A stretch of DNA of 64,000 nt from Gemmatimonadota bacterium. Lineage in GTDB: Bacteria; Gemmatimonadota; Gemmatimonadetes; Longimicrobiales; Gaopeijiaceae. Of this stretch, positions 52,455 through 56,682 are shown in pieces. The position numbers and the translations under genes are program-made. A model generated the notes under the pieces. It was not told where the DNA came from. It saw only the letters and a list, made by a program, of their open reading frames with translations, and did not search any database. The DNA lies in the NCBI GenBank assembly GCA_022826565.1, contig JAJDUP010000035.1:124001-188000 (forward strand), given 5' to 3'. The stretch's first letter is position 1. Each line of letters opens with the position of its first letter.

Positions 52455-53015
52455 GTGGTTACAATCGCCGCCCTGTGGCTCCCGATTCTTCTCTCCGCCG
52501 TGGTCGTGTTCGTCGTGAGCGCCGCGGTCTGGATGTTCATGCCCCACCACAAGCACGACTTCGCGCCGGCGTCGGACCAGGACAAGCTGATGGACGCGGT
52601 CCGCAGCAGCACGCCGGGACCCGGGATGTACTACTTCCCCTGGGCGATCGGCGGTGACGAGCGGTCGCCCGAGTACCAGGAACAGGTACGGGCGGGCCCT
52701 GTGGGGATCCTGCGGGTGCGTGATCCACAGTCGGTCGTCAACATGGGGCCGGCGATGCTCAAGTCCGTACTGCTGTACGCTGTGATCGGTGTGTTCGTCG
52801 CCTACCTGGCGTCGGTCACGCTCGCCGCCGGCGCTTCCTACCTGTCCGTCTTCCAGGTGACCGGAACGGCGGCCTTCATGGCCTACGGCTTCGTCGGCTA
52901 CCAGGAGGCCATCTGGTTCGGACTCCCGGCGTCGGTCGCCTTCAAGCACAGCCTCGACGGACTCGCCTACGCACTTCTCACCGCCGGCATCTTCGGCTGG
53001 CTCTGGCCCGCATAA
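52455..53015 (+). CDS. Conserved membrane protein of unknown function
   Basis: 186-aa inner-membrane protein. Helix 1 at about 4-24 (IAALWLPILLSAVVVFVVSA), a periplasmic or cytosolic loop starting MPHHKHDF with HHKH and then a PGMYYFPWA segment, then three helices near 103-125, 130-150 and 163-185, ending GWLWPA. The pattern HHKxDF ... GPVG ... NMG ... DGLAYALLTAG is one I have seen in uncharacterised proteins of Gemmatimonadota and Acidobacteriota. GTG at 52455 with GGAG upstream. It is divergent from the LolA-like gene and 27 bases upstream of the OsmC gene. Confidence 0.75.
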   Translation: MVTIAALWLPILLSAVVVFVVSAAVWMFMPHHKHDFAPASDQDKLMDAVRSSTPGPGMYYFPWAIGGDERSPEYQEQVRAGPVGILRVRDPQSVVNMGPAMLKSVLLYAVIGVFVAYLASVTLAAGASYLSVFQVTGTAAFMAYGFVGYQEAIWFGLPASVAFKHSLDGLAYALLTAGIFGWLWPA

Positions 53016-53042: not shown

Positions 53043-53504
53043 ATGAGCGACACAGTCTACCAATCGAATGTGCGCATCGAGCGCACGCGCGGGCCGCACC
53101 GGCTCGCCTATCTCCCCGCCCGCGAGGGACCCGTAGAATTCGGGGTCCACGGAGCGATCGCCGAGCACTATGGTGTCAGCGGCGTGGTCACCGAGACCAC
53201 CACCACGCTCGACTACGTGATCGCGGCCACCGGCGGCTGACTCGTCGGCACCTTCGGGGGCGTGCTGGAGGCACGCGGGATCGGAGCGGCGGGCGGCAGG
53301 CTGACGGCCGAGGTTGTGGGGAAGGTCGGCAAGGAGGAGGGCGTCCTCGTCATCCGGCAGATTCACGTGAAGTACCTGCTGAAGGAGGCGGGCGAGGACG
53401 GGGCGAAGATCCAGCGCGCCTTGGACCTGCACCCCATGCGATGTCCCGTCTACCGGACGCTGCACGAATGCATCGAGATCACGACCGAGCTGGCGATCGT
53501 CTGA
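53043..53504 (+). CDS. OsmC-family protein with in-frame UGA at the redox-cysteine position (probable selenoprotein)
   Basis: Read through one TGA (53238-53240) the frame gives a 153-residue OsmC/Ohr-like protein; codon 66 is the TGA. The sequence before it (LDYVIAATGG) and after it (LVGTFGGVLEARGI) match the family block in which the missing residue is normally the first redox cysteine. The second cysteine is present at 134 (HPMRCPVYRTL). The downstream frame stays open without a break to the normal end, with coding composition unchanged. A hairpin with a G-containing loop follows the TGA at a SECIS-like distance. Sec-containing OsmC-like proteins are known from marine metagenomes. It would reduce peroxides at a selenol. 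A simple TGC to TGA nonsense mutation or sequencing error is the alternative. ATG at 53043. Confidence 0.75.
53252..53286 (+). promoter_or_regulatory. Candidate bacterial SECIS element
   Basis: Upper stem GCGTGC (53260-53265) with GCACGC (53271-53276), six perfect pairs, 5-base loop TGGAG (53266-53270). A lower stem CTTCG (53252-53256) with CGGAG (53282-53286) pairs across an internal loop. The apical loop begins 26 bases after the TGA and has G at its second and third positions, within the known bacterial SECIS range (about 16-37 bases; G early in the loop). The hairpin also encodes conserved residues (VLEAR), so coding constraint could contribute. Confidence 0.6.
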
Positions 53505-53723: not shown

Positions 53724-54973
53724 TGGCGCCCGGGTCGCGGCGCCTCCCTTCCGCAGTCTCGCCCCAGGCCGGCTCCAGCCCGGCTGTTCGCGCCTTCCTG
53801 GCGGCATTCCTCGCTGCCTTCCTCCAGTTGAGCGCCTCGGCTCCCGCCTCCGCCCAGCTCCCCCGCGCCGCCAACGGGGAGGACCTTGCCAACGCCCCCG
53901 GCGACGCGATCTATGCCGCATCGTGCGCGAACTGCCACGGCCTCGACGGAATCGGCCTCGCCCCGGCCCTCCTCGCCTTCGAGGAAGAGGTCCCCGACTT
54001 CACCGACTGCGACTTCGCGGCGCGCGAGCCCGACGGCGACTGGATCGCGGTGGCGCACGAGGGCGGCCCGGTCCGCGGCTTCAGCGAAATGATGCCGGCC
54101 TTCCGCGGCGCGCTCACCGAGGAGCAGCTCGGCCGCGTGATGGGCTACATTCGCACCCTCTGCACCGACGACAACTGGCCCCGCGGCGAGCTGAACCTCC
54201 CCCGCCCCCTGCTCACCGAGAAGGCCTACCCCGAGGACGAATGGGTGGTCGAGGCGGGCCTGGACCTGGAGAGCGGCGGCGGCTTCACGGGCGCGTACGT
54301 CTACGAGCAGCGGTTCGGCCCACGCAGCCAGGTCGAGATCGTGATCCCCTACGGATGGCTGCCCACGCATTCCGGCGACCCCCACGACGAGCACGATCAC
54401 GACCATGACGCCGAGCCCCACGACGACGAAGGGCGGCGGCTCGGCCTGGGCGACTTCGTGGTCGGACTCAAGCACGCCCTCCATCACGACCTCGAGACGG
54501 GCACGATCTTCTCGGTCGGCGGCGAGGTGATCCTGTCCACCGGCGACTCCGACACGGGACTGGGCGCCCCCGGCAGCGCCCTCGAAGCGTTCGCCGCATT
54601 CGGCAAGATCCTGCCCCAGGACGGCTTTGTGCAGGCGCAGACCGGCCTCGAAGCGCCGCTCTACACGGACGGCGCCCTCGAGTGGTTCGGCCGTTTCGTG
54701 CTGGGAAGGAGCTTCACGGAGGGCCAGTGGGGCCGCACCTGGACTCCCATGTTCGAGACGCAGGTCAAACGGGAGTTCGAATCGGGGGCCGGCACCCAGT
54801 TCGACCTGGTGCCGCAGTTCCAGGTCTCGCTGAACACCCGTCAACACGTGCTGGCCAACTTCGGGCTGCTGGTCCCGCTGGGCGGCGACAGCGGGCACGC
54901 CGCACGTCACGTCCGCTTCGTTTCGTACCTGCTGCTCGACTGGTTCGACGGCGGGTTTTTCGAGGGGTGGTGA
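53723..54973 (+). CDS. Exported c-type cytochrome fused to an outer-membrane barrel-like domain
   Basis: 416 aa. A signal peptide (about 1-45, ends ASAQ) leads to a monohaem cytochrome c domain: CANCH (about 69-73) and a candidate axial methionine in MMPAFRG (about 116-117). From about 170 on, the protein turns into strand-rich sequence (VVEAGLDLESGGGF, FGPRSQVEIVIPYGW, GTIFSVGGEVILSTG, TQFDLVPQFQVSLNT) ending GGFFEGW, like a transporter-type barrel. A metal-binding-like loop of alternating His and Asp (about 220-233) lies between strands. A haem domain joined to a barrel suggests electron exchange at the outer membrane. It begins at the TGATG junction with the micro-ORF and ends 2 bases before the multihaem gene. 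Confidence 0.8.
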   Translation: MAPGSRRLPSAVSPQAGSSPAVRAFLAAFLAAFLQLSASAPASAQLPRAANGEDLANAPGDAIYAASCANCHGLDGIGLAPALLAFEEEVPDFTDCDFAAREPDGDWIAVAHEGGPVRGFSEMMPAFRGALTEEQLGRVMGYIRTLCTDDNWPRGELNLPRPLLTEKAYPEDEWVVEAGLDLESGGGFTGAYVYEQRFGPRSQVEIVIPYGWLPTHSGDPHDEHDHDHDAEPHDDEGRRLGLGDFVVGLKHALHHDLETGTIFSVGGEVILSTGDSDTGLGAPGSALEAFAAFGKILPQDGFVQAQTGLEAPLYTDGALEWFGRFVLGRSFTEGQWGRTWTPMFETQVKREFESGAGTQFDLVPQFQVSLNTRQHVLANFGLLVPLGGDSGHAARHVRFVSYLLLDWFDGGFFEGW

Positions 54974-54975
54974 GG

Positions 54976-56682
54976 ATGACGACGCTCCGATTCCGGCTTC
55001 GCTTTCCGATGATCGCCTGCCCCCTCCTGGGCGCGGTGCTGATCGCTGCCGGCGCGTCCCCGGCGGACGCTCCGGACGCGGGCCCGCCCTGGCCGCACAC
55101 CGCGGCCGGCCTCGCGACCCCAGCGGACACCACCGATCCCGCGGACGACTTCCGCACCGCCGACCGCTGCATCGCCTGCCACAAGGACGTCTCCGCCTCC
55201 GAAGGCACCGACGTCTCGATCGGCTTCGACTGGCGCGCGTCCATGATGGCCAACGCCGCGCGCGACCCGTACTTCCACGCGGCGGTGCGGCGTGAGATCA
55301 TGGACCATCCCGAGGCGGCGGCCGAGATCGAGGCCGAGTGCTCGCGCTGCCACATGCCGATGGCGACGGTCGCGGCGCTGAGGGACGGGGGGGCCGGCCA
55401 GGTCTTCGTCAACCTGCCGATCGGCGACGCCGAAGGTCCCTACGCCGACCTGGCCGCCGACGGCGTCTCCTGCGCCCTCTGCCACCAGATCCAGCCCGAC
55501 GGCCTGGGCACCGAGGAGACCTTCACCGCCCGTTTCCACGTTTCAGCCGAAACGCCGCCCGAGGGCCGCCCGGTCTTCGGCCCCTTCGAGCCCGACGAAG
55601 GCGGCGTCGGCATCATGCATTCCGCGACCGGATTCCGTCCCACGCTCGGCGACCATGTCACCTCGTCGGGGCTGTGCGCCTCCTGCCACACGGTGGTCAC
55701 CCATGCGGTCGGCGATGGCGGCCCCGGCCCCGCCTTCCCCGAGCAGGCACCCTACCTCGAATGGCAGGCGAGCATCTACGCCGAAGGCGCCGAACGGGAA
55801 CACTCCTGCCAGGACTGCCACATGCCCGAGGTCGGCGAGGATGTCCCCGTCACCCGCGTCCTGGGCCGGGCCCGCCCCGAGGTCTCGCGGCACGTCTTCC
55901 GCGGCGGCAACTTCTTCATGCTGCGGATGCTCAACCGCTACCGGGAAGAACTCGACGTAGTCGCGCTGCCCCAGGAGCTGGAACTCGCGGCCCTGCGAAC
56001 CGCCGAACACCTCCGCACGGCCACCGCCACCGTCGAGATCGGCAGAATCGGCGTCGGCGGCGGCCGCCTCGAGGCCACCGTGACCGTCCGCAACCAGGCC
56101 GGCCACAAGTTCCCGACCGCCTATCCGTCGCGGCGCGCCTGGCTGCGCTTCGCCGTCACGGACCGGTGGGGCGACCGCGTCTTCGAATCCGGCGCCCTGT
56201 CACCCGACGGCAGCGTCGTCGGCGACGATCACGACGCCGACGGCGCGAGCTACGAGGCGCACCATACCGTCATCACTTCGCCGGGCGATGTGCAGATCTA
56301 CCAGGCCGTCATGGTCGACGGCGACGGTGCGGTCACCACCGGCCTCATGTCTGCCCACCGCTGGGTGAAGGACAACCGCATCCTCCCCGACGGCTTCGAC
56401 CGCGCCACCGCCGACGCCCGCGTCCAGGTCGTCGGCATCGCCGCGGACGACCCCGATTTCGCCGCCGGCTCGGACCGGGTGCACTACACCGTCCCGGTGG
56501 ACCCCCGGGACGCCCCCTTCACCATCGAGGCCGAACTCTGGTTCCAGCCGATCGGCTACCGCTGGGCGGAGAACCTGGCCACCTACGACGCCTTCGAGAC
56601 ACGGCGCTTCGTGCGGTACTATCGCGAGATGGCGGAGGGATCGGCGCTGTTGCTGGCGCGGGCTGAGGCGGAGGGGGGTTGA
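54976..56682 (+). CDS. Five-haem c-type cytochrome, exported
   Basis: 568-aa periplasmic multihaem cytochrome. Five CXXCH motifs: CIACH, CSRCH, CALCH, CASCH and CQDCH within about residues 64-290, plus extra histidines for axial ligation. The C-terminal 250 residues are a beta-rich domain (ATVTVRNQAGHKFPTAYPS, where NQAGHKFPTGYP-like motifs occur in cytochrome c554/MauG-adjacent proteins). It resembles cytochrome c554/hydroxylamine-type electron carriers. The ATG at 54976 follows GGTGAGG; a GTG at 54970 is in frame too. Co-transcribed with the cytochrome-barrel gene two bases upstream, so the two may move electrons across the periplasm to the outer membrane. Confidence 0.88.
   Translation: MTTLRFRLRFPMIACPLLGAVLIAAGASPADAPDAGPPWPHTAAGLATPADTTDPADDFRTADRCIACHKDVSASEGTDVSIGFDWRASMMANAARDPYFHAAVRREIMDHPEAAAEIEAECSRCHMPMATVAALRDGGAGQVFVNLPIGDAEGPYADLAADGVSCALCHQIQPDGLGTEETFTARFHVSAETPPEGRPVFGPFEPDEGGVGIMHSATGFRPTLGDHVTSSGLCASCHTVVTHAVGDGGPGPAFPEQAPYLEWQASIYAEGAEREHSCQDCHMPEVGEDVPVTRVLGRARPEVSRHVFRGGNFFMLRMLNRYREELDVVALPQELELAALRTAEHLRTATATVEIGRIGVGGGRLEATVTVRNQAGHKFPTAYPSRRAWLRFAVTDRWGDRVFESGALSPDGSVVGDDHDADGASYEAHHTVITSPGDVQIYQAVMVDGDGAVTTGLMSAHRWVKDNRILPDGFDRATADARVQVVGIAADDPDFAAGSDRVHYTVPVDPRDAPFTIEAELWFQPIGYRWAENLATYDAFETRRFVRYYREMAEGSALLLARAEAEGG

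Follow-up and report, generated by a model that had tools for sequence, protein, structure and literature searches.

In the window analysed here, a stretch of 64,000 nucleotides from a Gemmatimonadota bacterium (contig JAJDUP010000035.1 of assembly GCA_022826565.1, positions 124,001 to 188,000), the gene at 53043..53504 of the forward strand very probably encodes a selenoprotein of the OsmC superfamily, in which the UGA codon of residue 66 would be read as selenocysteine (Sec); from the sequence data, the probability of this reading is put at about 0.95. Translation of positions 53043-53504 (+) reproduced the frame described in a first-pass annotation, made by a model from the letters alone: 65 codons, a TGA at 53238..53240 (+), and 87 further codons with no shift, giving 153 residues up to a terminal TGA at 53502-53504. 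The read-through protein matches the OsmC family PF02566 with 50.1 bits (E 3.9e-13; curated cut-off 27.5). The annotation had placed the TGA where OsmC-like proteins carry their first redox cysteine, and indeed this column aligns with a Cys of the PDB structures 2opl, 2onf and 1ml8, and is Cys in a further OsmC protein of the host genome. The second cysteine, Cys134, is retained as described (codon TGT, 53442..53444, +); its conservation and its correspondence with the second Cys of 1ml8 make it the likely resolving partner of Sec66. Three OsmC-domain matches are present in the host genome (4.39 Mb, 93% complete): the window gene, a TGA-containing paralogue with 34% identity, and a distant Cys-type protein. 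Homologues were divided into group A, to which the window gene belongs, and group B, formed by its distant paralogues, including that of the host (G000:C61:135703-136143), which has an in-frame TGA and a hairpin of its own, GCGCAC/GTGCGC. Group B relatives are also found in further genomes of the host's class. The nearest named homologue, with 95% identity across the window protein, comes from a Gemmatimonadetes metagenome-assembled genome.

The codon at column 66 is the most direct evidence. The first-pass annotation had proposed aligning homologues to see which residue or codon occupies this column, and every match that covers it holds TGA or TAG. In 111 loci with a match across the column (a set in which some genomes occur in both contributing sets, and for which 80 of 89 relatives from named genomes were retained), the codon is TGA in 104, TAG in 7 and Cys in 0; when both groups served as queries, the 139 matches comprised 132 with TGA and 7 with TAG. 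The in-frame TGA persists in homologues of independently assembled genomes down to about 30% identity, and homologues with a stop codon occur in records titled Gemmatimonadota, Acidobacteriota, Actinomycetota and Calditrichota. Throughout the 394 genomes of the class, 136 match the window protein at E 1e-8 (group B paralogues counted in), and among the matches listed all except one hold one TGA, the exception being a fragment that ends at residue 48; at most nine candidates per genome were scored after a loose prefilter, in this and in the other 394-genome search below. In 23 chosen genomes searched at E 1e-3, a single TGA is present in 30 of 32 matches, and the remaining two stop short of column 66.

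None of these searches returned a Cys form: none was matched by the window protein in the host genome at E 1e-3, a threshold at which the host's own Cys-type OsmC protein is too distant to match, none in the 23 chosen genomes at E 1e-3, and none, at E 1e-8, among the matches listed for the class (394 genomes). A profile, A1, built from 41 of the 81 available rows (the window and 80 loci), was run at E 1e-8 against 394 genomes from the class to which a Blastococcus genome belongs, and its sole match was the centre genome's UAG gene; the plasmids searched gave no match. A close Cys form would be matched just as readily by the same searches. In the tree, the group B rows form no single supported group, and the Cys row is a very long branch.

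The seven TAG loci belong to the Geodermatophilaceae (two Modestobacter, four Blastococcus and one Geodermatophilus) and form one clade (100/100) nested in the UGA rows and adjoining four Gemmatimonadota rows (95/80). Each of these genomes has one tRNA-Sec above the Rfam cut-off at E 1e-9, with an anticodon that ARAGORN reads as cta, in comparison with tca in the four UGA genomes examined alongside. Because of this cta anticodon, the tRNA-Sec of these loci (L128-L134) is labelled tRNA-Pyl by ARAGORN, and derived annotation could repeat the mislabel. That codon and anticodon change together is hardly explicable other than by Sec insertion at column 66, and since the relatives examined keep a stop there, which is UAG where the tRNA-Sec reads UAG, the gene appears to be a genuine selenoprotein gene rather than a damaged one. 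It is on balance likely that groups A and B constitute a Sec-obligate OsmC subfamily, with no Cys form surviving, in which the Geodermatophilaceae replaced UGA by UAG as the Sec codon while the anticodon of their tRNA-Sec changed in step. If true, the set of natural UAG-encoded selenoproteins gains an OsmC member. For the requirements of SelB and of the hairpin under a changed Sec codon, the division into UGA and UAG genes provides an experiment of nature.

Downstream of the TGA lies a putative selenocysteine insertion sequence (SECIS) at 53260..53276 (+). The annotated stem, GCGTGC (53260-53265) paired with GCACGC (53271-53276), the five-base loop TGGAG (53266-53270) and the distance of 26 bases from the TGA to the loop were all recovered. 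An additional lower stem had also been claimed; its outer pairs are drawn across an internal loop by RNAfold, but only the apical stem is kept when 58 sequences are folded to a consensus. The conserved hairpin spans 20-36 bases past the UGA and has a G in its small loop, as in bacterial SECIS elements. When the window sequence by itself was subjected to 20,000 synonymous recodings, six pairs arose in 8.8% and six Watson-Crick pairs in 0.5%; with a chance level of 8.8%, the hairpin of a single sequence is modest evidence. Across the homologues, the sequence evidence for a selected hairpin is strong. Among 113 distinct sequences (84 UGA group A, 23 UGA group B and 6 UAG), all six pairs form in 82/84 of group A and in 23/23 of group B, while under synonymous recoding with local codon usage the average number of such sequences was 7.3 for group A (at most 16 in any of 500 runs), 1.9 for group B (at most 8) and 0.6 for the UAG sequences; uniform codon models and models rich in G or C at third positions gave null means that were lower still. 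The codons in the arms differ between groups: in 18 group A sequences, including that of the window, a Val codon GTG in the 5' arm faces an Ala codon GCA in the 3' arm, GCA being rare (8 of 218 Ala codons counted), and in 18 group B sequences Ala GCA occupies the 5' arm opposite Val GTG. The Leu codon spanning the border of stem and loop is CTG in 106 of 107 UGA sequences. For covariation, a set of 58 was used (36 of the 72 distinct 45-mers of group A and all 22 of group B, UAG sequences excluded), in which 99.7% of cells are paired, against at most 71.8% in slid controls. Two stem pairs show changes on both sides, in 22 cells, and the paired cells, the both-side-change cells and the covariation score each exceed all 500 shuffles.

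The machinery for Sec insertion is encoded by the host genome. The first-pass annotation had proposed a search for selA, selB, selC and selD, and had regarded a genome lacking selB or selC as contrary evidence; all four are present, with a tRNA-Sec of 76.5 bits (anticodon tca), a C-terminal wing domain of SelB (E 7.1e-9) within a frame of 847 residues, and SelA and SelD. The SelD frame (G000:C25:28908-29828) has one in-frame TGA, so that SelD may itself be a selenoprotein. In the class as a whole, 283 of 394 genomes have the SelB wing, among them 127 of the 136 that match the window protein (Fisher p 1.2e-13, an optimistic value because the genomes are related).

The protein was modelled with Cys in place of Sec. 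The best of five AlphaFold models has a mean predicted local distance difference test (pLDDT) score of 91.2 and a predicted template modelling (pTM) score of 0.86, and it matches structures of the OsmC, YhfA and Ohr types, pointing to an OsmC/Ohr fold. The nearest fold matches are 2onf (Thermoplasma Ta0195) and 1ml8, an entry under the title 'hypothetical protein (crp region)' that we take to be E. coli YhfA. The protein shares 6-18% identity with the OsmC/Ohr rows. In a profile alignment, U66 and C134 each coincide with a Cys in 1ml8 as well as in 2onf; a single-sequence search of solved structures gave weak matches (best E 0.49). The residue alignment kept 131 of the 139 matches, corresponding to 109 distinct sequences plus the window, which is identical to its own genome copy. 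Y6, G17, R20, H36, D57, position 66, G69, T70, G73, L75, R78 and G93 are invariant across both groups (89 rows in A, 21 in B), and C134 and P135 are present in 88/89 and 21/21, respectively.

A catalytic cycle modelled on that of Ohr, which uses a lipoylated donor (PMC5962072, available text), could be proposed. SelB with Sec-tRNA-Sec would bind the hairpin and insert Sec66; this residue, located in a long helix (55-77) of the model, would attack an oxidised substrate, a peroxide or some other; Cys134 would then resolve the oxidised selenium to a selenylsulfide, to be reduced by a dithiol donor such as, perhaps, a lipoylated protein like the one that serves Ohr. The role of a peroxide-type reductase fits the modelled fold and the Sec/Cys pair, and the chance that a peroxide is indeed the substrate is judged to be about even. 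An alternative that deserves serious weight, at somewhat under even odds, is a thiol-disulfide or other redox enzyme with an OsmC fold, which is compatible with Sec and contests the peroxide step only. It draws on the nearest fold matches, as YhfA is a member of the OsmC superfamily with no known activity according to the available text of PMC5962072, on the low identity given above, and on the conserved set H36, D57, U66xxGTxxGxLxxR and CP, set against Arg19 and Glu51 of Ohr in a comparison made without structural superposition. On the other hand, R20 and the Sec/Cys pair occupy positions similar to those of the Ohr set, and a peroxiredoxin-like gene with a UGA codon is located 0.8-1.6 kb upstream in six Acidobacteriota loci.

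The other alternatives concern the codon itself. That a suppressor tRNA reads the UGA as another residue, e.g. Trp or Cys, is very improbable: conservation of the frame is by itself silent on the inserted residue, but the genome has the Sec machinery, the SECIS-type hairpin shows compensating changes, UAG is paired with a CUA tRNA-Sec in the Geodermatophilaceae, and the terminal stop of the window gene is also UGA. Least probable of all, with hardly any weight left to it, is a pseudogene or assembly error, in which a nonsense change or miscalled base splits an ordinary Cys gene, since, even though one base separates TGA from a Cys codon and the first-pass annotation had named a TGC-to-TGA error as possible, the stop stands in 111/111 matches from four phyla (by title), frame and residues past it are conserved, and the recurrence of the in-frame TGA in independently assembled genomes excludes sequencing error in practice.

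Several observations weigh against the selenoprotein reading or its mechanistic extension. Of five covariation measures, two do not stand out from shuffled alignments: the number of pairs with both-side changes (2) was reached in 214 of 500 shuffles, and the number of further pair types (4) in 500 of 500. Folding energy in the hairpin zone is not below that of synonymous shuffles (median z -0.18 for 80 group A and -0.75 for 23 group B sequences), so that support for the hairpin rests on the specific stem. This six-base-pair stem is formed in 0/6 distinct UAG sequences, where a different hairpin is drawn at a similar distance (median z -2.45). A SelB match is absent from 9 of the 136 genomes that match the gene; six of these have a tRNA-Sec, and three (64, 83 and 91% complete) show neither. 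SelB also often occurs without the OsmC gene (156 genomes). The remaining four AlphaFold models are less confident (mean pLDDT 71-83), and clustering of neighbourhoods revealed no gene partner common across lineages that would indicate the substrate.

Directly upstream of the Sec-encoding OsmC gene, a small membrane-type protein is encoded at 52455-53015 (+; start assumed) and is retained in near relatives; its only Pfam match, to DUF6112 (E 0.01), is below threshold. Downstream are cytochrome-like frames, including a multihaem type at 54682-56682 (+) that has no in-frame TGA and scores weakly against the ExtKL (seleno)protein model (25.6 bits; cut-off 250). According to a home-made gene caller, this arrangement is common to near relatives only. 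In 6 of 80 loci the OsmC gene is preceded, at a distance of 0.8-1.6 kb, by a peroxiredoxin-like frame of the UxxC type, W-TGA-P[FY]C (L065, L067, L074, L079, L082 and L086; in L067 about 1.1 kb before the Sec codon of osmC), so that the pair may be adjacent Sec-encoding redox genes. A strict scan of the window for further UGA genes missed even the gene at 53043..53504, and a looser one gave 25 candidates, just one of them, that at 53238, with a 7-pair hairpin; an Rfam scan of the window returned nothing.

OsmC-like selenoproteins have been in print since 2005 (PMC1088965). The published family (COG1765/PF02566, motif UxxT) was described in surveys of the Sargasso Sea and Global Ocean Sampling data in 2005 and 2008 (PMC1088965, PMC2398784) and recurs in reviews of 2022 and 2026 (PMC9312934, PMC13188914), as far as the available text of these sources goes; the deposited proteins MBR72571.1 and MCS5647933.1 are cited by name in the two reviews. 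No report of a Cys-free OsmC-like Sec subfamily, or of UAG-encoded members, was found in the open-licence literature, nor any paper combining 'selenoproteome' and 'Gemmatimonadota'; the genes described here combine UAG-encoded members and, in this sample, the lack of a Cys form with the UxxGT motif and two Sec paralogues in one genome. The 2005 survey, in its available text, required Cys homologues and counted 10 Cys forms in the Sargasso set and 17 in genomes, whereas none was found in the present sample; this gene, for which the searches gave no Cys form, could be missed by methods that depend on Cys homologues, and a pipeline reading UGA solely as a stop would split this widespread selenoprotein gene in two. 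The use of UAG for Sec in Geodermatophilaceae was reported in 2016 (via PMC5330540) and has been published for FDH, a protein with a UGSC motif and AhpC (PMC5330540); OsmC is not mentioned in the main text of that source as available, and the genes described there share with the present ones the CUA tRNA-Sec and the UAG at the Sec site. Ohr, 1ml8 and 2onf are Cys proteins, the latter two with 16% identity to the window protein. By position, and with side chains not superposed, the catalytic Arg19 and Glu51 of Ohr compare with the invariant R20 and D57, so that at most an Asp lies near the place of Glu51; the lipoylated donor, known for Ohr (PMC5962072, available text), is only proposed here. 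The family in the available text of the surveys and the genes of groups A and B share the OsmC domain, a bacterial SECIS and a Sec at the place of the redox Cys, and differ, in a comparison by motif only, in that the Thr stands at U+4 instead of U+3 (U66-x-x-G69-T70) in 110/110 rows.
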